Shown: piece after piece, positions 415-12,669 of the stretch
Layout: each line of letters opens with the position of its first letter
Numbering within the stretch: position 1 is the stretch's first letter
DNA from: a candidate division Zixibacteria bacterium RBG_16_43_9
GTDB lineage: Bacteria > Zixibacteria > MSB-5A5 > RBG-16-43-9
Length of the DNA stretch: 15,868 bases
Direction of reading: 5' to 3'
Assembly: GCA_001775355.1 (NCBI GenBank)
Contig: MEWM01000005.1
Span: 3,976 to 19,843, forward strand
The notes under the pieces: model-generated
What the model was told of the DNA's origin: nothing
Databases searched by the model: none
What the model saw: the letters and a program-made list of their open reading frames with translations, nothing else
Made by a program: the position numbers and the translations under genes

Positions 415-485
415 GGCGGAGCAAGGTGCTCCGCCTACGGTGAATAAAAAAACATCAACCCCGTAGGCGGGGCTCCCAGCCCCGC
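415..485. repeat. REP hairpin doublet, GTAG feet inward (downstream of the RAYT)
   Basis: Two hairpins lie in inverted orientation. The minus-strand one has GTAG at 438-435 and stem GCGGAGCA/TGCTCCGC (434-416). The plus-strand one has GTAG at 463-466, stem GCGGGGCT (467-474), loop CCC and AGCCCCGC (478-485). The second ends 2 bp from the RAYT stop codon. The first belongs to a 26-bp block (414-439) repeated exactly at 1054-1079 and with one mismatch at 6236-6261. Confidence 0.85.
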
Positions 486-487
486 AT

Positions 488-970
488 CTAAAATACAATC
501 CTGTCAACTTTTATTAAGTTTTCATCCTCTATATAATAATTTCTAAAACTTGAAAACTGGTAATTCATAAGCTCTTTTACTATGCCTGCCACTAATGGGT
601 TTTTATGAATATAGTCAATCTTCCTCTTGAAATCAAATTCATCCCTTACAACATGCTCATAAAATCCTTCTTGCCATAAAGGTTCATTTCTCTTCAAGAG
701 CCTGTTGAGCACCTGCGAAGTATGGCTTTTAAAATCATGCATAATCTTGGAAATATCACCTTTTTCTGAGGGAGTTATGAGCAGGTGTATATGATTGGGC
801 ATTATTACAAAAGCATGTAATTGAAAATCGAATTTCTTTCGATAAAATTCTAAATCTTCAATAAGGACTTGAATAATTTCTCGACCTTTGAAAATATTTT
901 CCTTCTCATAAGTATTCGTAGTCACAAAATAACAATAATTCTCTAAGATAATCCTTTTAAGCTTAGGCAT
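488..970 (-). CDS. REP-associated tyrosine transposase (RAYT, IS200/IS605-like Y1 HUH nuclease)
   Basis: This 160-residue protein belongs to the REP-associated tyrosine transposase family, single-strand DNA nucleases related to the IS200/IS605 TnpA. The HUH metal-binding motif is His60-Ile-His62 within VIMPNHIHLLI. The catalytic tyrosine is Tyr120 in KIDYIHKNPLVAG, equivalent by motif to Tyr115 of the E. coli enzyme. The intervening WQEGFYEHVVRDEFDF block is also typical. Length matches the family (about 150-170), and both catalytic motifs are intact, so it may be functional. Known RAYTs bind and cleave REP hairpins that carry GTAG at the 5' foot; exactly such hairpins flank this gene on both sides and recur elsewhere in the window. 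The ATG at 970 has only a weak upstream ribosome site. The gene looks more AT-rich than its neighbours, which fits acquisition. Confidence 0.93.
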   Translation of the reverse strand: MPKLKRIILENYCYFVTTNTYEKENIFKGREIIQVLIEDLEFYRKKFDFQLHAFVIMPNHIHLLITPSEKGDISKIMHDFKSHTSQVLNRLLKRNEPLWQEGFYEHVVRDEFDFKRKIDYIHKNPLVAGIVKELMNYQFSSFRNYYIEDENLIKVDRIVF

Positions 971-1028
971 AATCCATCTATTCTTTCAAGCTGTGATTTT
1001 TGTCTCCTCAAATTACCTATATTCATCC

Positions 1029-1078
1029 GTAGGTGGGGCTCCCAGCCCAGCACTGGCGGAGCAAGGTGCTCCGCCTAC
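1029..1078. repeat. REP hairpin doublet, GTAG feet outward (upstream of the RAYT)
   Basis: A plus-strand hairpin (GTAG 1029-1032, stem core GGGCT/AGCCC around CCC, slightly degraded at its base) is followed by a minus-strand hairpin (GGCGGAGC/GCTCCGCC, 1055-1075, with CTAC 1075-1078 as the complement of GTAG). Hairpins face each other with GTAG on the outer ends, the arrangement described for REPINs. It matches the doublet at 6199-6260 in both arms. Confidence 0.85.
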
Positions 1079-1092
1079 GAGTTTTTATCCGC

Positions 1093-1120
1093 CATTCATC
1101 ATCCGTCATCCGTCATTTAT
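1093..1120. repeat. 7-bp tandem micro-array (4 units)
   Basis: Four successive heptamers, CATTCAT, CATCCGT, CATCCGT and CATTTAT, lie 15 bp beyond the REP doublet and 27 bp from the stop codon of the mutase large subunit. Period 7 is unbroken. Function unknown; resembles short tandemly repeated repetitive (STRR) heptamers known from other bacterial intergenic regions. Confidence 0.6.
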
Positions 1121-1147
1121 TTTTCTCATCTTCCTTCTTCCATTTCT

Positions 1148-2815
1148 TTATATTAGGGGAGGTTCCACATATTCACCAAAAACACTCTTCATTACCTCTA
1201 CAATTTCTCCCTCAGTCGCATAACAACGGATGCATTCCAGGATAGCAGGCATAGTGTTACTAGTTCCCTGAACCACTTTTTTCAAATGCTCCAGACTTCT
1301 TTTTACCTTATCGTTATCCCTTTCAGCCTTGACTTTTTTGACTGCCTGGACCTGTTCTCTCTCCACCTCGGGATCTATCTTCAAAATAGGTATTTCTATT
1401 TTTTCATCCTGGATCAAAAAATCATTAATCCCTACTACGATCCTATCTTTGCTCTCGATCTCTTTCTGGTAACGGTAAGCCGCTTCTGCTATCTCCCTCT
1501 GAAAGTATCCTTCCTCAATGCCTTTTAGAACCCCGCCTCTTCTCTCTATCTCCGCAAAATATTTATCTGCCTCTTCCTCCATCTTATTGGTCAGCGATTC
1601 GACATAATATGAGCCAGCTAATGGGTCAATCGTATTCGCCACACCGGTCTCAAAAGCGATGAGCTGCTGCGTCCTCAAGGCTATTTGCACTGCTTTTTCA
1701 GATGGCAAAGCCCAGGTCTCATCCATAGAGTTAGTGTGCAAACTCTGAGTTCCTCCTAAAACTGCAGCTAATGCCTCAAAAGCCGTGCGCGCGATATTAT
1801 TCTCCGGCTGCTGTGCGGTCAGACTACATCCTGCAGTCTGGGTATGAAACCTTAAGAGCCAGGACTCTTCTTTTTTAGCTTTATACCTCTCTCTCATATG
1901 CCTTGCCCAGATCCTGCGCGCGGCCCGGTATTTGGCGATCTCCTCAAAGAAATCCAGATGTGAGTTAAAGAAAAAGGATAACCTCGGAGCGAAGTCATCG
2001 ACATCCAAACCCGCCTTAATCCCTGCCTCCACATAGGCGAACCCATCTGCCAGGGTAAAAGCCAGCTCCTGCACCGCGGTAGCTCCTGCTTCCCTGATGT
2101 GATATCCAGAAATAGAGATAGTATTCCATTTGGGAACGTGCTGAGAGGAAAAAGCCATTACATCAGTGATCAATCTCATATGAGGCAAAGGAGGGAAGAT
2201 CCATTCCTTTTGAGCGATATATTCCTTCAAAATATCATTTTGAATTGTTCCTGTTAACTTTTCCGAGGAAATCCCCTGTTTTTCCCCGACTGCAATGTAC
2301 ATCGCGAAAAGTATAGAAGCCGGGGCATTGATGGTCATCGAGGTAGAGATTTTATCCAGGCTTATTCCATCGAAGATTATCTCCATATCTTTCAAGGAGT
2401 CCACAGCTACCCCACATACCCCAACCTCACCCAAAGAACGTGGATGGTCTGAATCATAACCCATCAAAGTCGGCAGGTCAAAAGCAACTGAAAGACCGGT
2501 TTGCCCTCTTTGCAAGAGAAAATGGTACCTTTCGTTGGTCTGTCTGGGCGTCCCCATTCCAGAGAACTGACGCATAGTCCATAATCTTCCCCGATACATA
2601 TTCGTCCTGATCCCCCGGGTATAGGGAAACTCCCCGGGGAATGCGATGTCTTTGCTGAAATCGATCTTCGCTATATCTGGAGGACTATAAAGAGGGTTGA
2701 CCTCCTCCCCTGAAACGGTTATGCACCTTCGATTGGGAGCCTTGCAGGTTTTATAAACCTCCTCCCATTTTCTTTTTTCTTCTTCGATTTTTTTAAGCTT
2801 ATCTTTATCAAACAT
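1148..2815 (-). CDS. icmA: B12-dependent acyl-CoA mutase large subunit, isobutyryl-CoA mutase-like
   Basis: This is the catalytic (alpha) subunit of the methylmalonyl-CoA mutase superfamily, 555 residues, a TIM barrel that binds acyl-CoA and works with a separate B12-binding subunit. Diagnostic blocks include YTRGIRTNMYRGRLW (65-79), GQTGLSVAFDLPT (104-116), GTIQNDILKEY (189-199), ISGYH with His239, and SLTAQQPENN/GGTQSLHTN. Specificity residues are unusual for a mutase labelled methylmalonyl: Phe84 (in MRQFSG) and Gln202 (in EYIAQKEW) stand where P. shermanii methylmalonyl-CoA mutase has Tyr89 and Arg207. They match Phe80 and Gln198 of Streptomyces IcmA, with the same offset of four. The likely reaction is therefore isobutyryl-CoA to n-butyryl-CoA. 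It follows meaB by 22 bp in the same direction. Family membership is certain; the substrate call is inference from two residues plus overall IcmA-like motifs (EYIAQKEW, FHTQTAG). Confidence 0.93.
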   Translation of the reverse strand: MFDKDKLKKIEEEKRKWEEVYKTCKAPNRRCITVSGEEVNPLYSPPDIAKIDFSKDIAFPGEFPYTRGIRTNMYRGRLWTMRQFSGMGTPRQTNERYHFLLQRGQTGLSVAFDLPTLMGYDSDHPRSLGEVGVCGVAVDSLKDMEIIFDGISLDKISTSMTINAPASILFAMYIAVGEKQGISSEKLTGTIQNDILKEYIAQKEWIFPPLPHMRLITDVMAFSSQHVPKWNTISISGYHIREAGATAVQELAFTLADGFAYVEAGIKAGLDVDDFAPRLSFFFNSHLDFFEEIAKYRAARRIWARHMRERYKAKKEESWLLRFHTQTAGCSLTAQQPENNIARTAFEALAAVLGGTQSLHTNSMDETWALPSEKAVQIALRTQQLIAFETGVANTIDPLAGSYYVESLTNKMEEEADKYFAEIERRGGVLKGIEEGYFQREIAEAAYRYQKEIESKDRIVVGINDFLIQDEKIEIPILKIDPEVEREQVQAVKKVKAERDNDKVKRSLEHLKKVVQGTSNTMPAILECIRCYATEGEIVEVMKSVFGEYVEPPLI

Positions 2816-2837
2816 AAGACCTCACCTTCAGGCTAAT

Positions 2838-3773
2838 TTACAAATTCAAATTCTCCAGAATCTTCTCTCCGGCAGAATAAGGATCTTCCTGACCGGAATA
2901 GACCTTTTCTGCCAGCTGGTCCAGATTGGCATCGTTTAAGTTCTTTTCGATCAGCTCTTTTAGCTTTAGCTCCATTATTTTTTTCAATTCCGATTTAATC
3001 TGTTCTTTACGATGTTTTTCCAGAAGATGGTTTTCGGTGATGTACTTTCTGTGCTCCTTAATTTTCTTTAACAAATCATCTATGCCTTTATTATTGACCG
3101 CTTCCGTAGAAACGACCGGGTAATTCCATTCCCCCTTTTTTCTCCGCACGTCCAGAATCATATCTAACTCCGAAACTATCCTGTTTGCTCCTTCTCTATC
3201 AGCTTTATTCACCACGAATATGTCTGCTATCTCCATCAGACCGGCCTTCATCGCCTGGATGCTGTCACCTGATTCCGGAACAAAAACTACCAGGGTAGTG
3301 TCGCAGGCATCAACTATGTCCAATTCTATCTGGCCTACGCCTACGGTTTCAATTAAAATAAAATCCTTACCAAAAGCATCTAAAAGCAAAGACACCTCTT
3401 TGGTGGCAAAGGCCAGACCACCTAAGGAACCTCGGGTTGCCATGCTGCGAATGAAGATACCTTTTTTGGTGGTCAAATCCTGCATCCTTATCCGGTCTCC
3501 TAAAAGAGCACCCCCGGTAAAGGGGCTGGATGGGTCGACCGCGATTATCCCCACTTCATTTCCGTTTTGAATCAGGTCACAGCTTAATTTGTCCACCAGG
3601 GTGCTCTTCCCAGCCCCTGGCGGACCGGTTATCCCTACCCGGTAAGCTTTCCCGGTTCTGGAGTATAGAGAGGATAAGATCTTGCGATAATCAGGGGCTT
3701 GATTTTCCACATAGGAGATAAGCCTGGAAAGTGCCACCTCGTCTTTTTGAAGGAATCTATCTAATAAAGACAT
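2838..3773 (-). CDS. meaB: MeaB/ArgK-family GTPase, chaperone of the acyl-CoA mutase
   Basis: This G3E-type GTPase of 311 residues protects and reloads B12-dependent acyl-CoA mutases by gating cobalamin delivery and release of damaged cofactor. The P-loop is GPPGAGKS (50-57). Next come the MeaB-specific block DPSSPFTGGALLGDR (80-94) and RSMATRGSLGG (109-119), then ETVGVGQ (142-148) with the switch glutamate, and NKAD (189-192) as the guanine-specificity motif. Length is normal for the family. It begins 10 bp after the recJ stop and ends 22 bp before the mutase large subunit, so it is almost certainly co-transcribed with its client. The older name 'ArgK, arginine/ornithine transport kinase' is a historical misannotation for such proteins. 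Confidence 0.95.
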   Translation of the reverse strand: MSLLDRFLQKDEVALSRLISYVENQAPDYRKILSSLYSRTGKAYRVGITGPPGAGKSTLVDKLSCDLIQNGNEVGIIAVDPSSPFTGGALLGDRIRMQDLTTKKGIFIRSMATRGSLGGLAFATKEVSLLLDAFGKDFILIETVGVGQIELDIVDACDTTLVVFVPESGDSIQAMKAGLMEIADIFVVNKADREGANRIVSELDMILDVRRKKGEWNYPVVSTEAVNNKGIDDLLKKIKEHRKYITENHLLEKHRKEQIKSELKKIMELKLKELIEKNLNDANLDQLAEKVYSGQEDPYSAGEKILENLNL

Positions 3774-3783
3774 ATCTTTCTTT

Positions 3784-5487
3784 TTATCTCATCTGCAGGT
3801 CTTTAAGACGCATCTGGATTTTGGAGTTTCCGTTCCAGACGTTGAGCTCCAGCACGTAAGCTAAATCTATTTTTGTGCCCCGCATTGCCAGAGGTTTGGC
3901 AAAATCTCCTAAATTAAACCCAATAGCATCCATAATTATCCCGTTTTTCTTCACTCTTAACCTCAGATGATTCTTTCCTACCACGTAGGCGTCATCCGCT
4001 AATTCCAGACCTCTGGTCACGAAGACCGGTTTTAAATTGCCGGGGCCGAAAGGAGCAAAAAGTTCCAGGGCTGATATAAGCCCATCCTGTATCTCCTCTA
4101 ATTCCAGCTCCGCATCCACAGTTAGCCTGGGAATTAAATCCTCATCTTTAATTATCCTGGCTGAAACCAGTTTAAATTTCTCTTTGAAGGATTCGATCTT
4201 TTTAGAGGAAATAGAAAGACCGGCCGCATACTTGTGACCCCCGTATTTCAAGAGACAATCCTCGCATTCTTTTAGAGCCTCGAACAGGTGAAACCCTGGG
4301 ATACTCCGGGCTGAACCCTTCCCCTCTTCACCATCGATGGAAATCATCACGGTTGGCCTGTAGAATCTTTCGGCAACTCTTGAGGCAACGATTCCTATAA
4401 CCCCCTGATGCCATCCAGCAGATGCTAATATAATCGCCTTGTCATTTTTCAGGTTAACCTCTTCCTGGATCAGCTCTAAAGCCTGTTCCAGGGTTCCCTC
4501 ATCGATATTTTTTCTCTTTCGATTTTCCTCATCCAAAACCCGCGAGATCTCCGAAGCTAATTTCTCATCTCTGGTGGTCAAGAGCTTGATTGCCCTTTCC
4601 GCATCTCCTAATCTTCCTACAGCATTTATCCGCGGTGCCAGGATGAACACAACCTGTCCTGTTCCGATCTCCCTTCCCATCAGCCCTGAGATGAAGATTA
4701 GAGATTTAAGCCCTGGTTTGGAGGTTTTAGCAACCTGTAAAAGCCCGTATCTGGTCAAAATCCTGTTCTCACCCAGGAGGGGAACAATATCCGCGGCAGT
4801 TCCCAGGGCTACTAAGTCAAGATGGTCCTCTAACTCTTTTTCATCCTGCCCTAATTTTCTGTAAAGAGCTTGAGCTAATTTAAAAGCCACCCCCACTCCG
4901 GAAAGTTCTTTTCCCTTATAGGTTTCTCCTTCCTGCTTGGGATTGATAATCGCCCAGGCATCAGGCAATACCTCAGCTGGCTCATGATGATCAGTAATGA
5001 TACAATCTATTCCTTTCTTTTGAGCAAAATCAACCTCTTTTACTGCATTGATACCACAATCGACTGAGATAATTAGTTTTGCTCCCCTTCTTTCCGCCTC
5101 TAAAATCCCCTCCTCAGAAAGTCCATAACCTTCGACCAGTCGGTTAGGCAGATAATATGAGACCTGGGCTCCTAATTTGGTCAAAACCAGATACATAAGA
5201 GAAGCTGAGGTGATCCCATCCACATCATAGTCCCCGAAGATCATTATCTTCTCTTTATCTGTGAGCGCTGATATAACCCTATCCACTCCCCTTTCCATAT
5301 CCTTAAGCATGAAGGGGTCAGAAAGATCGCTCAGGCTGGGGTTTAAGAAGTTCCTGGCTTCTTCCGGTTCTGAATACCCCCGATTGATCAGAATTTTTCC
5401 TATTACTGGAGGCAGCCCTAATTCGGATGAGAGTTCTTTGCACTTGTTCTCATCTAATTTCTGGGGAAATTCCCATTTCAATTCCAT
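3784..5487 (-). CDS. recJ: Single-strand DNA 5'-3' exonuclease RecJ
   Basis: RecJ degrades single-stranded DNA from the 5' end in recombination (RecF pathway) and mismatch and base-excision repair. The 567-residue length is close to the E. coli protein (577). DHH-family motifs appear in order: motif I Asp86-Tyr-Asp88-Val-Asp90-Gly; motif II around Asp143 (SVDCGI); motif III Asp166-His167-His168; motif IV near Asp223 (GTAADIVPL); then the DHHA1 block with GSARS (381-385) and GGHKYAAG (406-413), and a C-terminal OB-like region. All metal ligands look intact. ATG at 5487 follows a purine-rich AAAGGAAAA stretch at a workable distance. It is the first gene of a recJ-meaB-mutase run; the link with B12 metabolism is probably only positional. 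Confidence 0.96.
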   Translation of the reverse strand: MELKWEFPQKLDENKCKELSSELGLPPVIGKILINRGYSEPEEARNFLNPSLSDLSDPFMLKDMERGVDRVISALTDKEKIMIFGDYDVDGITSASLMYLVLTKLGAQVSYYLPNRLVEGYGLSEEGILEAERRGAKLIISVDCGINAVKEVDFAQKKGIDCIITDHHEPAEVLPDAWAIINPKQEGETYKGKELSGVGVAFKLAQALYRKLGQDEKELEDHLDLVALGTAADIVPLLGENRILTRYGLLQVAKTSKPGLKSLIFISGLMGREIGTGQVVFILAPRINAVGRLGDAERAIKLLTTRDEKLASEISRVLDEENRKRKNIDEGTLEQALELIQEEVNLKNDKAIILASAGWHQGVIGIVASRVAERFYRPTVMISIDGEEGKGSARSIPGFHLFEALKECEDCLLKYGGHKYAAGLSISSKKIESFKEKFKLVSARIIKDEDLIPRLTVDAELELEEIQDGLISALELFAPFGPGNLKPVFVTRGLELADDAYVVGKNHLRLRVKKNGIIMDAIGFNLGDFAKPLAMRGTKIDLAYVLELNVWNGNSKIQMRLKDLQMR

Positions 5488-5511
5488 GAAGACTTTTCCT
5501 TTCTCAATTTG

Positions 5512-5579
5512 GTAGAACAGACATTCTTGTCTGTTCTCGTGACAGTGTACTTGTGGTCAGACAGGAATGTCTGACCTAC
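5512..5579. repeat. REP-like hairpin doublet, GTAG feet outward
   Basis: Plus-strand GTAG (5512-5515) abuts AACAGACA-TTCT-TGTCTGTT (5516-5535). After a 19-bp spacer comes GGTCAGACA-GGAA-TGTCTGACC (5555-5576) with CTAC at 5576-5579. The two hairpins share the AGACA/TGTCT core. The doublet lies 25 bp upstream of the recJ start; no clear recJ promoter was seen around it. Confidence 0.8.
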
Positions 5580-5592
5580 TTCCTCAGTAAAT

Positions 5593-5615
5593 GGAGGTCT
5601 GAAGACCTCCGCTAC
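5593..5615 (-). repeat. GTAG hairpin (single)
   Basis: On the minus strand GTAG (5615-5612) and one C precede GGAGGTC-TTCA-GACCTCC (5610-5593), a perfect 7-bp stem. It is one of five GTAG hairpins packed into the 264-bp recJ-rnpB spacer (5488-5751), which holds no gene. Confidence 0.75.
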
Positions 5616-5634
5616 ATTGTTCCAGCAAGCACTT

Positions 5635-5738
5635 GTAGCGGAAGGCCTCAAGGTCTTGTCCACAGGATCCTGGCGAAGACTTCAGCCTTCCAGAATTCTT
5701 TTCATCCTTTATCTGTGGAGGTCTGAAAACCTCGCTAC
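5635..5738. repeat. GTAG hairpin doublet, feet outward, just downstream of rnpB
   Basis: Plus-strand GTAG (5635-5638) and one C precede AAGGCC-TCAA-GGTCTT (5642-5657, one G-U pair). At the other end GAGGT/ACCTC (5718-5733), one G and CTAC (5735-5738) form the opposite hairpin. Between them (about 5665-5692) is a weaker imperfect hairpin. The right hairpin begins 13 bp beyond the rnpB 3' end and could limit 3' exonuclease trimming or transcription there. Confidence 0.65.
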
Positions 5739-5751
5739 ATTTTTCAATAAA

Positions 5752-6129
5752 GACCAAAACAGACCATAAGCCGAGTTCTGTTATCCATCTGGATATGACG
5801 ATCATTTATCTGGGACCAGGTTTGCACCTGGACTCAAGCGACCTACCCGGGAGTAAAAACGAAGCAGGCGACTTCTCCTCCCCTATTTGGTCTTGCTCTC
5901 AAGTGGGGTTTGTCCTGCTCCCGGTATCACTACCGGGACGGTAGTCTCTTACACCACCATTTCACCCTTGCTCCTGCCCCGATGTATCGGGGCGGGGGCG
6001 GTATAGTTTCTGTGACACTTTCCGTTCCCCTGTAGGAGACCCTCGGGTTACGAGGCACTCTGCCTTGGAGAGCTCGGACTTTCCTTCCCCCGCCGTCGGC
6101 GGGGGACGATCGTCTGGTCTGTTTTGGTC
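5752..6129 (-). ncRNA. rnpB: RNase P RNA, bacterial type A-like
   Basis: This is the catalytic RNA of ribonuclease P, which cleaves tRNA 5' leaders. Ends were set by a perfect 14-bp P1 helix: 6116-6129 pairs with 5752-5765. On the minus strand the 5' part has the conserved GGAAAGTCCGAGCTC block, preceded by a compact P3-position hairpin with an 8-bp stem (6087-6105). The middle has the CACAGAAACTATACCGCC segment, and the 3' end has ACAGAACTCGGCTTAT immediately before P1. A second perfect hairpin at 5976-5993 probably forms part of P12. Length (378 nt) is normal. It lies 214 bp after guaB in the same direction. A proposed start within a few bases of 6129 is uncertain, as no convincing promoter was seen. 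Confidence 0.95.
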
Positions 6130-6154
6130 AAAGAGCAAAAATTCACTTCTCTTA

Positions 6155-6178
6155 TAAACTCTTCAACTTCTGAACTTA
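6155..6178. repeat. 8-bp tandem micro-array (3 units)
   Basis: Three units, TAAACTCT, TCAACTTC and TGAACTTA, lie between rnpB and the REP doublet at 6199. The first unit is identical to the first unit of the array at 15124-15155, far away in the window. Confidence 0.55.
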
Positions 6179-6198
6179 TATACCTTATTTATCCTCTC

Positions 6199-6260
6199 GT
6201 AGGCGGGGCTCCCAGCCCCGTTGATTTTTCTTCTATGGCGGAGCAAGGTGCTCCGACTAC
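6199..6260. repeat. REP hairpin doublet, GTAG feet outward (guaB-rnpB spacer)
   Basis: Plus-strand GTAG (6199-6202) is followed by CGGGGCT-CCC-AGCCCCG (6204-6220). After 16 bp comes GGCGGAGC/GCTCCG (6237-6255) with CTAC 6257-6260. Both arms are near-identical to those flanking the RAYT, so this is a RAYT-less dispersed copy of the same unit, about 5 kb away. Confidence 0.85.
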
Positions 6261-6343
6261 GAGCTCAGAGGATCAAACTTTTTGAGACTTAAAGAACTCT
6301 ACTGTAACAATCAATATAAAGGTTTTGGAAAAAGTTGTCAAGC

Positions 6344-8516
<2,173 letters not shown>

Positions 8517-8517
8517 T

Positions 8518-8533
8518 ACTAAGACTCCTTAGT
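8518..8533 (-). promoter_or_regulatory. Ribosome site inside a small inverted repeat
   Basis: On the minus strand ACTAAG-GAGT-CTTAGT forms a perfect 6-bp stem whose 5' arm and loop contain AAGGAG, the ribosome site of the zinc-ribbon gene. The stem is mostly A-T, so any masking of the site would be weak. Confidence 0.35.
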
Positions 8534-8545
8534 TTATTTTACTTA

Positions 8546-8583
8546 AAAAGAAAAGTGCACTTTTCATCGTGCACTTCTCTTTT
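8546..8583 (-). terminator. Terminator-like hairpin downstream of the tRNA unit
   Basis: A 15-bp stem with one mismatch (8546-8560 with 8569-8583) closes an 8-base loop. On the minus strand it ends in CTTTTCTTTT followed by further T/A bases, as expected for an intrinsic terminator of the tRNA transcript. The T-rich tract is partly inside the stem, so efficiency is uncertain, and it could act on both strands. Confidence 0.6.
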
Positions 8584-8667
8584 AAATTGGCCCTCTTCTT
8601 GAAACCTTTAAAAAACCGTCGATGGTCTCTTCCCTCTGAAAAACTTTCATCCATTTTCCCTTGTCTA

Positions 8668-8695
8668 TGAACCATGAACTATTAACTACTAACTG
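8668..8695. repeat. 7-bp tandem micro-array (4 units)
   Basis: Units are TGAACCA, TGAACTA, TTAACTA and CTAACTG in unbroken 7-bp phase, ending 7 bp before the 3' end of tRNA-Val. The rest of 8584-8701 shows no other feature. Confidence 0.55.
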
Positions 8696-8701
8696 CCTTT
8701 A

Positions 8702-8778
8702 TGGTGGGCAATATCCGACTTGAACGGATGACCTTTCGGATGTGAACCGAACGCTCTAACCAACTGAGCTAATCGCCC
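8702..8778 (-). tRNA. tRNA-Val (anticodon CAC)
   Basis: The minus strand folds as a full cloverleaf: acceptor GGGCGAT/ATTGCCC with one G-U pair, D-stem GCTC/GAGC, anticodon stem TTCGG/CCGAA with loop TTCACAT, variable AGGTC, and T-stem ATCCG/CGGAT with loop TTCAAGT. The discriminator is A and CCA is encoded (8704-8702). Anticodon CAC reads GUG. It is the second tRNA of a two-gene unit. Confidence 0.95.
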
Positions 8779-8787
8779 ACATAATAC

Positions 8788-8855
8788 AGTGACGGAGTGA
8801 TTAGTGATAAAGTGATTAACTAATCACTCCATCACTCAGTCACTTTATCACTCTT
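8788..8855. repeat. Head-to-head 7/8-bp repeat array between the two tRNAs
   Basis: The right half holds four 8-bp units, each beginning TCACT (8824, 8832, 8840, 8848). The left half holds four units beginning AGTGA (8788, 8796, 8803, 8811), the reverse complement of that core. Because the halves are inverted, two alternative long helices are possible: 8794-8805 with 8819-8830 (12 bp) and 8803-8815 with 8840-8852 (13 bp); they share bases and so compete. It fills almost the whole tRNA spacer. Confidence 0.7.
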
Positions 8856-8858
8856 ATC

Positions 8859-8932
8859 TGGGCCCACCAGGACTTGAACCTGGGACCCACTGATTATGAG
8901 TCAGTTGCTCTAACCAACTGAGCTATGGGCCC
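8859..8932 (-). tRNA. tRNA with CAU anticodon (elongator Met, or Ile2 after lysidine modification)
   Basis: The minus strand gives acceptor GGGCCCA/TGGGCCC, D-stem GCTC/GAGC, anticodon stem ACTGA/TCAGT with loop CTCATAA, variable GGGTC, and T-stem CCAGG/CCTGG with loop TTCAAGT. The discriminator is A, followed by GAT, so CCA is not encoded, unlike its neighbour. Anticodon CAU is certain. Elongator Met and TilS-modified Ile2 tRNAs share this loop, and I cannot separate them from sequence alone. Confidence 0.93.
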
Positions 8933-8950
8933 TCCAAAACATCTAAAAAG

Positions 8951-8980
8951 AATATATTACTTGCAAACCTCATTAGTCAA
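8951..8980 (-). promoter_or_regulatory. Sigma70-type promoter of the tRNA unit
   Basis: On the minus strand TTGACT (8980-8975) and TATATT (8956-8951) are separated by 18 bp. The -10 box ends 18 bp before the mature 5' end of the CAU tRNA, giving a short leader. Both boxes are near consensus and correctly placed. Confidence 0.75.
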
Positions 8981-9065
8981 GATTTTTTTCGATTTATTCC
9001 CTGATCTCTTTTTGGCTTTTGCACTATTCATACGTCCTGGAAGAAGCCTTTTTTGAGCCTGAGGC

Positions 9066-10808
9066 TCACTTCCTCACCAGTTTATGAAGTATGACTGTCA
9101 GCTCCTCTGCTTTTTCCTTTTCACCTTTGCCCCAGGCAATTTTGACCTCTTCCTTTAATCTCCTGATCTGGTCAGATTTCTTTTTCTGCTCTATCCTTTT
9201 GATATAATCCCCCAGCATAAGCTCCGGCTCAGCCAGCCCTAAGTCCAGGGTGGATATCTCCGATATAAGCTCTTTCAACTTTTGAGCTTGGGTTTTATCG
9301 ATCAGGGCTGAGGGCGAGACTTTTCCGGCTGCTTCAAAAAGATTCAGGATCATCTCAAATAATTCTGCATTTTCAGGAAAATAGAAATCCTCCTTGCTTA
9401 GCCTGTCCCTGGTCAGGGGAATTAATCTATTCTCATCTATTAAGATTTTTAAAAGCTCCCTTTCTAATTTATGCGGCCCTTTAAGCTTCTCTTCTGGTAA
9501 AACTTTGGAGCGCTCCTCTTTTCTGCCTATACCTTTGATTGCATCCAGGATGATTTTTTCGTTTACCTTGAAAGCTTGAGCAGCTTTATTTATGAAAAGG
9601 TCTTTCCAGAGCTGGTTTTTTATCCGGCTGGCAGTTTCGGCTAATTCCTTGATTATTCCCTCCTGCTCCTTCATTGGAAGCGAATTGAATTCCGCAGGCA
9701 AAGAGTCCTTTTTATAATCGATAAAGCTCTTGGCCTCTCTCAACTTCTGAGCCATGCCTTTTAGACCATACTTCCTCACAAAACTATCCGGATCTTCCCC
9801 TGAGGGTAAGACCACTATCATCATCTCCATTTCTGAGTCAAAAAGAAGGTCCGCGCTGCGGAATACGGCAGACTCTCCTGCCCGGTCTGAATCAAACAGG
9901 AGGTAGACTTTCTCCGCATAACGCGAAAGAAGCCGGGCTTGGTCCTGCGTAAAAGAGGTTCCCAGAGGAGCGACCACATTCTTTATCCCGGATTGATATA
10001 GACTGATTAAATCGATATACCCCTCTACCAGCACCGCTGCTTTTTTGTCCCGGATCAGATCCTTTGAAATATTAAGGCCATAGAGGATTTTCCCTTTGTG
10101 ATATATGGGAGATTCAGGCGAATTTAAGTATTTCGGCTCATCCTTCTCCTGGATGATTCTTCCTCCAAATCCCACTATCTTCTGGCTTAAGTTAAATATA
10201 GGGAAGGTTACCCGGTCCCTGAACCGGTCATACCACCCGGCTTTTTTGTCTTTTTCCACCACCAGACCAGCAGACAAAAGGATTTCTGGCTTCAAACCCT
10301 TCTCATTCGAGAACCTGATCAGCCCCTCCCATTCCGCAGGAGCATAACCTAAGGAGAAAACCTCTATCGTCTCTGAGGTAAATCCACGGCTTTGAAGATA
10401 ATCCTTTGCTTTTTTGCTGCGAGTTAGAGAATCTCGAAAATACTCGTTAGCCACCTGATTGGCATAAAAAAGCTGGTCCAAAGTTTCTGTAGCCTTCTGG
10501 TCTGAAGTCTTTTTGGGAAGAGAGATATTAGCCCGCTTAGCCAGTAGTTTCAGAGCTTCAAAGAAGCTTAGTTTCTCATGCTCCATCAGGAAAGTATAGA
10601 CGTTCCCTCCCTTTCCGCATCCAAAGCAGTGATAGATCTGCCTCTCCTGGCTGACTGAAAAAGAAGGCGTCTTCTCCGGGTGAAAGGGGCACAAAGCCGT
10701 ATAGCTTTTTCCTTTTTTCTTGAGAGGCAGGTATTCGGAGATGACCTCAACAATGTCGTTTGCTTCCCTGACCTGATTAATCAGCTCATCCGGTGTAAAA
10801 TTAGGCAT
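9066..10808 (-). CDS. dnaG: DNA primase DnaG
   Basis: DnaG makes RNA primers at the replication fork with the replicative helicase. The 580-residue protein has the N-terminal CHC2 zinc finger with Cys40, His43, Cys61 and Cys64. The RNA-polymerase core includes YDRFRDRVTFPI and GFGGR (about 193-217). The Toprim fold has the catalytic Glu262 in VEGYID and Asp306-Ser-Asp308 in LLFDSDRAG. A helical C-terminal domain (about 430-580) is the expected helicase-binding region. Length is normal. The start at 10808 matches the usual MPxFxPDEL opening, but the ribosome site (AAGCGA) is weak. The frequent partner rpoD does not follow here; a tRNA unit does. A nine-A run about 20-30 bp upstream may be part of a promoter, but no clear boxes were found. 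Confidence 0.96.
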   Translation of the reverse strand: MPNFTPDELINQVREANDIVEVISEYLPLKKKGKSYTALCPFHPEKTPSFSVSQERQIYHCFGCGKGGNVYTFLMEHEKLSFFEALKLLAKRANISLPKKTSDQKATETLDQLFYANQVANEYFRDSLTRSKKAKDYLQSRGFTSETIEVFSLGYAPAEWEGLIRFSNEKGLKPEILLSAGLVVEKDKKAGWYDRFRDRVTFPIFNLSQKIVGFGGRIIQEKDEPKYLNSPESPIYHKGKILYGLNISKDLIRDKKAAVLVEGYIDLISLYQSGIKNVVAPLGTSFTQDQARLLSRYAEKVYLLFDSDRAGESAVFRSADLLFDSEMEMMIVVLPSGEDPDSFVRKYGLKGMAQKLREAKSFIDYKKDSLPAEFNSLPMKEQEGIIKELAETASRIKNQLWKDLFINKAAQAFKVNEKIILDAIKGIGRKEERSKVLPEEKLKGPHKLERELLKILIDENRLIPLTRDRLSKEDFYFPENAELFEMILNLFEAAGKVSPSALIDKTQAQKLKELISEISTLDLGLAEPELMLGDYIKRIEQKKKSDQIRRLKEEVKIAWGKGEKEKAEELTVILHKLVRK

Positions 10809-10858
10809 ATTTTTCGCTTATAATTTTGTTTTTTTTTGTTTGTATGAAAGCATTTTAA

Positions 10859-10883
10859 CGTCGGGCATAAAGCCCGACGCTAC
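10859..10883 (-). repeat. GTAG hairpin upstream of dnaG
   Basis: On the minus strand GTAG (10883-10880) abuts CGTCGGGC-TTTAT-GCCCGACG (10879-10859), a perfect 8-bp stem. The sequence is unrelated to the RAYT-flanking hairpins except for the GTAG foot. Confidence 0.8.
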
Positions 10884-10892
10884 AATCTTTTC

Positions 10893-10915
10893 CCCTCTCT
10901 TTCCCAGGGAGAGGG
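10893..10915. repeat. CCCTCTC palindromic intergenic repeat
   Basis: CCCTCTC (10893-10899) pairs with GAGAGGG (10909-10915), and a further partial copy, GGGAGAGG, follows at 10918-10925. This resembles the common CCCTCTCCC-type intergenic repeat of many bacteria. No GTAG-hairpin relation was assigned. Confidence 0.55.
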
Positions 10916-10955
10916 TAGGGAGAGGTTCTGTCTTTTCTTTTATCCAGCCCTTTAT

Positions 10956-10978
10956 GCAGGGCTAAAGCCTTGCCCTAC
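10956..10978 (-). repeat. GTAG hairpin downstream of the DUF3108-like gene
   Basis: On the minus strand GTAG (10978-10975) and one G precede GCAAGGC-TTTA-GCCCTGC (10973-10956), with one A-C mismatch. A second, overlapping pairing, AGCCCT/AGGGCT (10946-10963), is also possible. Confidence 0.65.
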
Positions 10979-10995
10979 ATTTTCTTTTATTGGAT

Positions 10996-11016
10996 ATTCG
11001 TAATTCGTCATTTTTA
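10996..11016. repeat. 7-bp tandem micro-array (3 units)
   Basis: ATTCGTA, ATTCGTC and ATTTTTA run in 7-bp phase and reach the stop codon (11014-11016) of the DUF3108-like gene. The ATTCGTA heptamer resembles STRR-type heptamers reported in cyanobacterial spacers. Confidence 0.5.
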
Positions 11017-11730
11017 TTTATATTCCTTCAACGTCATCACTGTCCCACCTGCATTATCTAAATATTTCACCATAAGATTTGGTTTATTTTTCTGATAAAA
11101 AAGCTCAACCTCCTTACCGGCAACTTTCATCTTGACCTTGTTACAGAGGAACTCTCCTGAAGGGACTTTAACTTTTTCAGGTTTCAGCACCTCGATCTCT
11201 ACTGGAAAACTGGTTGCGGATATGGGAGACACATCTTTGAACGTAAACTTAGTCCTCTCTTTAAGAGTTAAAGCTCTCAGGAGCAAAACTATCTCCTCGT
11301 TATCGTATCCATCCTTCGGGAAATCTATGTCTGTCTCTTTATTTCCCTGAGGAGTCTCCAGCTTGACTTTTACCTTATCCGCAAGATAGATGGCTTGAAC
11401 TTTGATAAACATCTGGGGAGTCATTATCATCCGTTCTAAAATCAGGGGTTTAAGATTCCCCTGATTGATTATCAGGCTCACGCTGTCAAAGGTGTTCTGA
11501 CTCTGATAACCTGTCAGGGTCGCCACCTTTATTTGATAGGCTTTGGTCTTTTCAATAAGGGTATCAGTAATCAGATAATCTTGACTCCCCACCAACTCAT
11601 CTTTATACCTGATCTCATAGGAAAACTTTTCTCCATTTTTCCAGTTGGGATTCTTTATCAAGAGCTGACTTGAACTAATGCTGAAAAAGACAAAAATCAA
11701 AAGTAAACTTAAGATTATCTTTTTCCTCAT
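11014..11730 (-). CDS. Secreted DUF3108-like protein of unknown function
   Basis: This is a 238-residue exported protein. It begins with a classic signal peptide: MRKK, a hydrophobic stretch to about residue 17, then SISSSQ, with cleavage likely near 20-22. The mature part is predicted beta-rich. It contains NGEKFSYEIRYKDELVGSQDY near the start, VPSGEFLCNKVKMKV near the end, and a final KPNLMVKYLDNAGGTVMTLKEY. These features are typical of the DUF3108 family, periplasmic or envelope beta-barrel-like or lipocalin-like proteins without an assigned reaction. A GAGGAG ribosome site lies eight bases before ATG 11730. It starts 25 bp after the membrane-protease-like gene and is probably co-transcribed with it. 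Family assignment is moderate, from motif resemblance only. Confidence 0.8.
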   Translation of the reverse strand: MRKKIILSLLLIFVFFSISSSQLLIKNPNWKNGEKFSYEIRYKDELVGSQDYLITDTLIEKTKAYQIKVATLTGYQSQNTFDSVSLIINQGNLKPLILERMIMTPQMFIKVQAIYLADKVKVKLETPQGNKETDIDFPKDGYDNEEIVLLLRALTLKERTKFTFKDVSPISATSFPVEIEVLKPEKVKVPSGEFLCNKVKMKVAGKEVELFYQKNKPNLMVKYLDNAGGTVMTLKEYK

Positions 11731-11755
11731 TTCTCACACTCCTCTCATTAAAGGT

Positions 11756-12580
11756 TTAATTTGAAACTAATGGCTCTGTTATATTCTCTGTTTTCAACTC
11801 CAGCCTCTTTTTTAATGTTATCAGTAAAAAAATTAAAATCAGATATCCGAGGATGACATATACAGGCAAAACCCCAAACATCATATATTTCAGGAGAAAT
11901 TGAGCTAATTTTAATCTTTGAAAATACATAATGAATAAAACCGTTCCATCCACCAGCTCATGATAGAGTATGGCAATGACAAAAAACAAAGCAAGTTTTA
12001 TCCAGCTTTTATCTTTATACCAGAAATATACCCCCACTCCAACTAAGCCCCCCATAATCGCATGTATCTGAATAGCTAAGAACCTCTCATAAACCCCCAT
12101 CCAGGTGACAAAAGCGAAGAAAAGGTTCAAACCGAAGAGCTTCCCTATTTTGGGAAATAACATACAAAGCATCAGAGTAAAAGCCTCACCCACACCATAA
12201 CCCAGTCCCACCCAGTATCCAAAAGCTAAAGCACTGGAGCTTTTCTGAAAAAATCTTTTTATCTGATCTCGAAAAACCCAGACGGTGATAAAAATGACCA
12301 GGAGCTTGGCTAATTCTTCCCAGAAATTGTTATCCATCTGCACCACGAAGGTAACAAACCAGAAATTATTTTTCCAGAAAACCATCTGGACTTCCCAGTG
12401 CTTACGAAAGATAAACAGGGGAAAGAAAATAGACCCTACCCAGTAAGAGAAAAACCAGATCTTGATGGGTAGAGTTTTAATCTCAGATACTTTCCTCAAA
12501 ACCAGGAAAACAATCACCGGACATAAAATGCAGATTAAAAGAACCATCCCCAGGATAGGACTTGTTATCAGCTTGACCAT
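11756..12580 (-). CDS. PrsW/YhfC-like polytopic membrane protein, putative intramembrane protease
   Basis: This integral membrane protein of 274 residues has about eight hydrophobic segments. Polar residues within them follow the PrsW/YhfC/CAAX-protease superfamily plan: Glu88-Glu89-Leu-Ala-Lys92 (EExxK), Glu132 in GYGVGEAF, His173 in AIQIHAIMGG, and His207-Glu-Leu-Val-Asp211 (HxxxD). Such residues are thought to form the active site of glutamic or metallo intramembrane peptidases; PrsW cleaves an anti-sigma factor in Bacillus. The substrate here is unknown. ATG 12580 follows an AAGGGG ribosome site. The gene is followed 25 bp later by the secreted DUF3108-like gene. The catalytic assignment is inference from motif spacing; it could instead be an inactive relative. 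Confidence 0.7.
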   Translation of the reverse strand: MVKLITSPILGMVLLICILCPVIVFLVLRKVSEIKTLPIKIWFFSYWVGSIFFPLFIFRKHWEVQMVFWKNNFWFVTFVVQMDNNFWEELAKLLVIFITVWVFRDQIKRFFQKSSSALAFGYWVGLGYGVGEAFTLMLCMLFPKIGKLFGLNLFFAFVTWMGVYERFLAIQIHAIMGGLVGVGVYFWYKDKSWIKLALFFVIAILYHELVDGTVLFIMYFQRLKLAQFLLKYMMFGVLPVYVILGYLILIFLLITLKKRLELKTENITEPLVSN

Positions 12581-12610
12581 TTTTTAATTTTCCCCTTCTT
12601 TTAAGTTCTG

Positions 12611-12628
12611 GTAAACCTGAAGGTTTAC
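12611..12628. repeat. Palindrome GTAAACC/GGTTTAC
   Basis: A near-perfect 18-bp palindrome with stem GTAAACCT/AGGTTTAC lies in the mutS2-protease gene spacer. It lacks the GTAG foot seen in the other hairpins and may be a variant or unrelated. Confidence 0.5.
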
Positions 12629-12644
12629 ACTCCAAAGCCACTTA

Positions 12645-12669
12645 CGTCCCGCCAGAGGCGGGACGCTAC
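12645..12669 (-). repeat. GTAG hairpin downstream of mutS2
   Basis: On the minus strand GTAG (12669-12666) abuts CGTCCCGCC-TCT-GGCGGGACG (12665-12645), a perfect 9-bp GC-rich stem 26 bp after the mutS2 stop. It might also help end the mutS2 transcript, although no T-tract follows. Confidence 0.8.

Follow-up and report, generated by a model that had tools for sequence, protein, structure and literature searches.

Repetitive extragenic palindromes (REPs) with an unpaired GTAG on one side of the stem were defined as a GTAG super-family by Di Nocera 2013 (PMC3733652), where 24 stem/loop families, multi-family genomes and heterodimers are described. Hairpins of this type, together with a gene for a REP-associated tyrosine transposase (RAYT, or TnpAREP), are found in a stretch of 15,868 nt from the draft genome of the candidate division Zixibacteria bacterium RBG_16_43_9 (contig MEWM01000005.1, positions 3,976 to 19,843), hereafter the window. 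They agree with the features given for the super-family in PMC3733652: unpaired GTAG on one side, stem of 6–13 bp, short loop, intergenic location, singles and dimers including heterodimers, several families per genome and a RAYT nearby. The hairpins are REPs of the known GTAG super-family and form a rich system of a kind already known. The original prediction, made from the letters of the window, considered such stem diversity unusual; it is not so in kind, as GTAG REPs with many stem families and genomes holding several of them were already published (PMC3733652, PMC3686654).

Some features nevertheless distinguish this system from the REPs treated in PMC3733652. Here, 21–26 few-copy clusters occur in 35% of a 2-Mb genome, although the counts cannot be compared directly, since the published families join compensatory stem variants that clusters cut by edit distance keep apart. 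In that set head-to-tail neighbours are under-represented; here they are common. The nesting mentioned there concerns a few REPs lying within other palindromes in a few species, whereas here the loops of the REPs are invaded by other palindromes. Nunvar 2013 (PMC3686654) reports 22 and 13 REP classes in two strain groups, Pseudomonas and Stenotrophomonas, with each class tied to a RAYT, and also orthologous RAYTs with changed REPs. Those classes likewise show many stems under one foot but were pooled over 63 and 10 strains, whereas the count here is for one genome. The REPMb/REPSm pairs of group 3 (subclass 2.5) treated in PMC8266576 share with the present REPs their perfect short stems and the guide role of GTAG; they come from other organisms, and the RAYTs here are known from sequence.

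It is likely that the GTAG REPs of this genome form many small families moved by several RAYTs, with free stems and with loops that receive palindromic inserts, including a discrete 21-mer. Several RAYT/TnpAREP single-strand transposases, one encoded in the window, would move the families, each reading the GTAG foot as a guide together with the loop, while the stem would only have to pair. The loops receive smaller palindromic inserts, seen as indels, and the 21-mer TCCNNNGGATCC-N6-GGA would be a discrete micro-element that inserts exactly and without target duplication. What is new is the nesting of an exactly inserting 21-mer, together with the use made of REP loops.

The GTAG foot across the genome

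The genome that carries the window (G000; window at C5:3976-19843) is a 1.95-Mb draft of 160 contigs, 74% complete. Sixty stretches of it (688,932 of 1,951,274 nt, 35%) were sampled and sampled stretches are given L-numbers; as 12 of the 20 stretches in one sampling batch were chosen from contigs bearing Y1 genes, densities are possibly slightly high. Open reading frames (ORFs) of at least 100 aa were called by a simple script and not by a gene finder. The strict hairpin rule comprises GTAG, a gap of 0–1 nt, a perfect stem of at least 6 bp and a loop of 3–8 nt. Older scans recorded maximal stems and thereby lost the hairpins in which foot bases take part in the stem; they underlie the GGAG-foot counts, the loop statistics and the search around Y1 genes, and other figures, unless marked, come from the corrected scan.

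All 14 hairpins listed in the original prediction are present in the window. The GTAG foot attributed to every one of them holds under the strict rule for 10, the others being two imperfect hairpins, a weak one and an interrupted one (at 5635). In 300 first-order Markov shuffles of the window, the same rule was satisfied 0.25 times on average and three times at most. At the scale of the 35% sample, 256 of the 912 intergenic GTAGs (28%) bear a hairpin, the highest share among the 256 tetramers (median 2.2%), and the four runner-up tetramers (TAGG, AGCG, TAGC, CGTA) overlap the same motif. These 256 feet lie in 398 intergenic pieces (105,849 nt); in 40 shuffles of these, 2.2 such feet were found on average and never more than 5, and on these grounds chance was rejected as the source of the GTAG excess between genes. 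Over whole stretches, 270 GTAG hairpins are intergenic (107,745 nt) and 33 lie in ORFs (581,187 nt), a difference of about 44-fold by density, so that the hairpins are far from equally common inside genes. GTAG also ranks second of the 256 tetramers inside ORFs (24/2170, median 0.36%; earlier scan). The enrichment at hairpin feet on which the original prediction relied was thus recovered in this sample, against both shuffles and the other tetramers.

Single-linkage clustering of the 270 intergenic hairpins by edit distance yields 24 stem clusters with at least three copies at distance 3 (26 and 21 at distances 2 and 4). The 24 clusters hold 227 of the 270 hairpins, with 3–34 copies each on 1–20 stretches, and the largest GTAG clusters count 34, 30, 22, 21 and 14 copies. 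Among 55 unique hairpins of a single geometry (8-nt arm, 4-nt loop), the loop positions carry 1.23, 1.34, 1.01 and 0.70 bits of information versus 0.13–0.67 bits for stem and spacer (foot positions 1, 3 and 4 of this set being fixed through data selection). The 4-nt loops under GTAG are TTTA or TTCA in 61/84 cases, over 18 stem strings (16 with one-pair extensions merged); TTTAT, CTTGT, CCC and TTC are further loops of GTAG hairpins. GTAG and a stem had been proposed as the only fixed feature, but the loop is conserved too and a second foot exists: GGAG followed by T marks another hairpin group. Its main cluster has 34 members in the sample, among them a hairpin of the window that the first listing missed (12611..12633, minus strand; GGAG-T-GTAAACC-TTCA-GGTTTAC) and of which degenerate copies lie at the same slot of the two sister genomes introduced below.

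In the SELEX (systematic evolution of ligands by exponential enrichment) data of Corneloup 2021 (PMC8266576), the TTTA loop of REPMb requires T12, T13 and A15 and leaves base 14 free, while a swap of the whole stem moderately affects cleavage. The resulting TTNA rule fits the TTTA and TTCA loops found here, and the TTYA loop group as a whole would obey it. If, as this pattern and the SELEX on another RAYT suggest, the enzyme reads the GTAG foot and the loop and the stem need only pair, the stems would be free to drift, which would explain their diversity. Conserved foot and loop with free stems, a prediction of SELEX on one published enzyme, would then be seen here at genome scale.

Two sister genomes of the same genus, G001 and G002, are collinear with the window. 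The REP next to mutS2 (12645..12669, minus strand; GTAG-CGTCCCGCC-TCT-GGCGGGACG, strict scan) is CGTCCCGC-type in G000 and G001 and CGTCGGGC-type in G002. Such occupation of one slot by different families argues against the hairpins being ordinary intrinsic terminators or mRNA-stabilising hairpins with GTAG or CTAC as an incidental flank, as do the foot at 0–1 nt that marks 28% of the intergenic GTAGs, the loop that varies less than the stem and the presence of hairpins in both orientations, often side by side. Most hairpins are intergenic and could be transcribed, and for many REPs a role as RNA elements is assumed (PMC3733652); even so, this explanation is very improbable. Taken as a whole, the three genomes lend themselves to natural comparisons: at one slot a RAYT cassette found in a single genome and not in the other two, family-switched REP slots and exact 21-nt insertions.

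RAYT genes and the families around them

The RAYT of the window is encoded on the minus strand at 488..970 (160 aa), with the HUH motif NHIH, the Y motif YIHKNP and the guide-reading motif WQEGFYEHVVR. Its identification in the original prediction is confirmed by NCBIfam NF047646 (137.5 bits, cut-off 80) and by a match to the TnpAREP of PDB 4er8 (E 2.9e-13); PF01797 gives 55.8 bits (cut-off 23). The five residues through which the E. coli protein touches the GTAG guide (W94, Q95, E100, H101 and R104; PMC6006769) are all aligned and identical to 4er8. The best named match of the protein is from an Elusimicrobia metagenome-assembled genome (39% identity, in a scan that may omit the window's own genome), and its best identity to the Y1 loci of G001 and G002 is 37%.

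This gene is flanked by REPs of the GCGGGGCT and GCGGAGCA types. With the latter named A and the former B, the order along the plus strand is A(-) B(+) RAYT B'(+) A(-). The outer copies, at 416..438 (GTAG-GCGGAGCA-CCT-TGCTCCGC) and 1056..1078 (GTAG-GCGGAGCA type), are direct repeats of each other on the minus strand. The inner B copy at 463..485 (plus strand; GTAG-GCGGGGCT-CCC-AGCCCCGC) lies a few nt from the RAYT stop; these three satisfy the strict scan. The upstream B' copy at 1029..1051 (plus strand) is degenerate, with two non-Watson-Crick stem positions, as judged by eye from repeat comparison. The nearest REP copies on the two sides are thus direct, and A and B are inverted to each other. 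A fixed composite unit made of the GCGGGGCT/GCGGAGCA pair was considered and rejected: the feet point inwards at 416/463 and outwards at 6199/6239. Neither sister genome has a RAYT at this slot; G002 has a single GCGGAGCA REP there and G001 has REPs of other families. Because the A-type REPs flank the cassette as direct repeats, its recombinational loss in G002 is as possible as its gain in G000. Since RAYTs come and go from slots, many families would be left without a nearby RAYT.

The contigs of G000 contain 10 PF01797 matches, 9 of them over the cut-off, and 6/10 pass NF047646. Clustering the stems and counting the RAYTs, as the original prediction proposed, therefore sets 21–26 families against ten Y1/RAYT-like genes. 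Of its two options, one RAYT or several, the second is favoured, since several such genes exist and different Y1 genes lie between different REP families; the C85 and C22 RAYTs are each located between identical REPs. Y1 ORFs were searched in G000 and relatives by sequence motifs, a search that does not catch every Y1 gene (C124 of G000 was left out). Among the 25 distinct ORFs obtained (44 loci), like REPs lie on both sides of 9/14 ORFs with the guide motif [WF]Q....[ED][HR]..R and of 0/11 without it; the leading position of the motif, W alone in the first motif test, was W/F in the second.

A single RAYT could instead mobilise all families in trans, with the stem diversity arising by mutational drift in one population. 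The TTYA loops and the one geometry common to many stems would suit such an enzyme, as would the excess of families over guide-motif RAYTs. This is unlikely, however, as different REPs bracket different Y1 genes (CGTCGGGC and GCGACCT in G000; GGAAAGC and GTCGAGAT in relatives), several loop and stem-length geometries coexist (TTTAT, CTTGT, CCC, TTC) and in G001 the REPs with a GGAG foot adjoin a Y1 gene of another type. NHYH-type Y1 ORFs were observed near GGAG-foot and not GTAG hairpins at L187 (G001) and at L026 10385-10744 (G000, 331 nt away), which suggests, from these sequences, that foot and enzyme type change together.

Several observations weigh against movement of the families by several cognate RAYTs. 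Five of the 14 motif-bearing RAYTs, the window's own included, do not have matching REPs on both sides, and in the first motif test a GTAG hairpin lay within 500 nt of 8/8 motif-bearing ORFs and also of 5/11 others. The guide motif is found in only 4/10 Y1 genes of G000 (three by search, C124 by eye), far below the family count. No GGAGGTC-type hairpin, the type of the largest GTAG family, was found within 600 nt of the ten G000 Y1 genes (older scan); apparent cognate RAYTs of this type occur in G002 and G003, and G000 is only 74% complete. Moreover, REP neighbours within 100 nt form 36 head-to-tail, 24 head-to-head and 18 tail-to-tail pairs. When pairs with a small-cluster member are left out, same-family pairs make up 9/22 of the head-to-head (2.6 expected by label shuffling), 3/11 of the tail-to-tail (1.6) and 2/23 of the head-to-tail ones (3.2): homotypic pairs exist, but most neighbours belong to different families, often head-to-tail. 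Finally, no movement was directly observed.

Two observations concern the coding regions of Y1 genes. The C85 RAYT ORF has a REP at its predicted start (L023 973-1006), and the peptides GAGLKPAPT and GTGFQPV in two other Y1 proteins (L024 6333-6962; L025 1821-2369) look like translated repeats.

Palindromic inserts and the 21-nt element

Two REPs of the window illustrate the inserts. At 5635..5691 (plus strand), the REP GTAG-C-GGAAGGC…TTCA-GCCTTCC is interrupted by 34 nt (5647..5680, plus strand) that are absent from G001 and G002; the insert has a CTCAAGGTCTT..AAGAC shell around a GGATCC-centred core, and the 16-mer CTCAAGGTCTTGAGAC is met uninterrupted at other places. The alignment of the three genomes shows 30-nt flanks identical to those of G001 and, in G002, a one-base change adjoining the insertion point. 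The hairpin originally drawn at 5635-5661 straddles the boundary of the insert and was rejected as a REP in its own right. The REP at 5512..5535 (plus strand; GTAG-AACAGACA-TTCT-TGTCTGTT, strict scan) carries in G001 a 21-nt GGATCC insert in its loop, absent from G000 and G002.

A scan of 31 G000-G002/G001 alignments (146 kb in total, some overlapping) for indels of 12–160 nt whose two 30-nt flanks each show at least 70% agreement gave 27 indels at 24 unique sites. Six of the 24 empty junctions are spanned by a stem of 6 bp or longer and so fall in a hairpin loop, versus 1.9% of random points and 5.0% of random intergenic points. The loop inserts seen as indels measure 16, 21, 31, 34, 40 and 120 nt. 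GGATCC is present at 8/24 sites, in five 21-nt inserts and in others of 34, 40 and 114 nt. The loop guests include a 16-mer, CTCAAGGTCTTGAGAC (20 copies with at most one mismatch, control 0), the 31-nt and 120-nt inserts and several more by inspection.

Other REP loops contain about 45–120 nt of TTCGACTTCGCTCAGGACGGTGAGC-like sequence (L016 848, L021 332, L022 12009, L026 19100), and the 120 nt at L016 848 are missing in G002. Comparison of L022 9721 with L240 reveals a further insert of 18 nt, GTCGATTTTGACCTTGAG, whose site is empty in G002 (flanks 1.0 and 0.97) and which has CTCAAGGTC in common with the 16-mer.

The 21-mer, TCCNNNGGATCCNNNNNNGGA, is present in 32 copies in G000 (reversed-pattern control 0), with length variants of 20, 22 and 23 nt. 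Its stricter form, TCCTAYGGATCC-N6-GGA (TCCTAY..), has 20, 18 and 24 copies in G000, G001 and G002 (reversed controls 0). Elsewhere in the phylum, this form was found five times in G007 and once each in G003, G005, G009 and G044, and not in the other 124 of 132 genomes. It is nearly confined to the order of the window's genome; the copy in G044, which lies outside that order, may be due to chance. Parts of 14–16 letters of the 21-mer and the 16-mer (both strands) gave no match in literature whose coverage largely leaves out subscription papers.

Among 26 copies in the G000 sample, 4 are absent in a relative and 2 are shared; the 24 copies examined in G002 and G001 likewise give 4 absent and 2 shared. 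The gap is exactly 0 at four of the absent sites, and L240/L022 is exact in alignments only. Joined flanks match the empty relatives over 74/74 nt (G002 filled, G000 empty) and 78/78 nt (G001 filled, G000 and G002 empty), and no target duplication was seen at the exact sites. At L031:748, the 21-mer is present in G002 while G000 and G001 are empty. The 5' flank is biased: it is C-rich and resembles CCTN, with C(-4) in 27/34, C(-3) in 21/34 and T(-2) in 21/34 unique sites. With its 21 nt and clean junctions, the element is small enough for full in vitro testing on oligonucleotides.

These inserts could be immobile, an old feature precisely deleted or a by-product of assembly or recombination. 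The pattern at L017:14204, where G001 has a decayed copy and G002 is empty, fits an exact loss in G002, and two sites are common to G000 and G002. At L031:748 and at the 5512 REP of the window, however, a single genome of the three carries the insert and the junction is intact in both others; no direct repeats able to mediate deletion were seen by eye at the exact sites, and the 32 dispersed copies, the empty reversed-pattern control and the biased 5' flank do not suit such an origin, which is improbable. Spread of the 21-mer by movement or gene conversion of REPs already carrying it would account for near-identical inserts in AACAGACA and GCGACCC REPs at several loci. This is slightly less probable still: 38/50 copies lie outside hairpins of at least 6 bp, and one exact empty site with identical flanks (L031:748) is outside any REP, a second (L065:17536) having more diverged flanks. 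Mobility of the 21-mer, and not mere loss, is well supported at the two sites by this comparison of sequences.

How the 21-mer moves can be approached through known elements. Y1 elements of the IS200/IS605 group insert without target-site duplication, beside a fixed 5' tetra- or pentanucleotide. The 21-mer is like them in its gap of exactly 0 at four orthologous sites without duplication, and its 5' flank is biased and not fixed; by this analogy, its mode of insertion resembles that of IS200/IS605 Y1 transposases. Its mover may be a Y1 HUH transposase that works on single-stranded DNA, for instance on the extruded loop of a REP. For the 21-mer itself, the nearest precedent is the small dispersed repeats of Nostoc, which Elhai reportedly described in 2008 as repeats of 21–27 nt with predicted structure, nested insertions and recent mobility; the two are likened by description. 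The guide and cleavage rules of Y1 transposases are given in PMC8266576. REPs are also insertion hot spots for insertion sequences (ISs), e.g. ISPpu9/10 and ISPa11 (Tobes and Pareja 2006, PMC1525189); unlike these ISs, which have a transposase, the guests here are of 16–120 nt and largely self-complementary.

A broader but more tentative view is that REP hairpins are landing pads for layered palindromic micro-elements of 16–40 nt, which would insert exactly into single-stranded loops, and elsewhere, by Y1 HUH chemistry. It is somewhat less likely than not, in part because exact CCTN precedes only 12/34 copies (versus 1.9% of positions). If it is true, few mobile DNAs backed by direct empty-site evidence would be as small as the 21-mer, and such elements would accumulate in REP loops. 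A hairpin stem of at least 6 bp spans the insertion point in 12/50 elements (7 distinct stems by eye), versus the same 1.9% of random and 5.0% of random intergenic points.

This shortfall of CCTN and the copies outside hairpins count against a mobile, loop-seeking element, and so do other points. Most copies have no orthologous flank in the sample (20 of the 26 in G000, 18 of the 24 in G002 and G001). Three absent sites lack a clean junction and two sites are shared, and at L017:14204 gain and exact loss in G002 are equally likely. No Y1 gene or tnpA was seen between 21-mer ends in the loci read, no systematic search having been made.

Two 22-nt inserts of the 21-mer type (L204 9763 and L217 18590, in G002) split a GGGCGTTCAA/TTGAACGCCC palindrome precisely at its centre. 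In G000, 9/11 copies inside ORFs are of exactly 21 nt, compared with 5/10 intergenic ones; given these small numbers, in-frame selection inside ORFs is suggestive only.

Other hairpins and genes of the window

The remaining REPs of the window lie in three regions. Beside the 5512 REP are a REP of another stem at 5556..5579 (minus strand; GTAG-GTCAGACA-TTCC-TGTCTGAC, strict scan), one at 5593..5615 (minus strand; GTAG-C-GGAGGTC-TTCA-GACCTCC, strict scan) that belongs to the largest GTAG cluster of the sample (34 copies), and a weak REP-like hairpin of 5 bp, recognised by eye, at 5718..5738 (minus strand). Further on, a GCGGGGCT-type REP at 6199..6220 (plus strand) and a GCGGAGCA-type REP at 6239..6260 (minus strand), both from the strict scan, form a pair that is kept in G000, G001 and G002. 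The third region has a REP of the 30-copy cluster at 10859..10883 (minus strand; GTAG-CGTCGGGC-TTTAT-GCCCGACG, strict scan) and a degenerate one with a single stem mismatch at 10956..10978 (minus strand, by eye).

The genes of the window include MM_CoA_mutase, B12-binding, recJ, guaB (IMPDH), a DUF3108 gene, rnpB (5752-6125) and two tRNA genes; two more were called dnaG and mutS2 from sequence, without family search. The DUF3108 gene and a gene of 274 aa without Pfam match make up the segment 10812-12613, with REPs near both edges; in G001 and G002 this gene pair is missing and the corresponding slot measures only about 120–140 nt. Between the two tRNA genes, at 8788-8852, lie AGTGATTAACTAATCACT-type inverted repeats without a GTAG foot, 15 nt of which are absent in G001.

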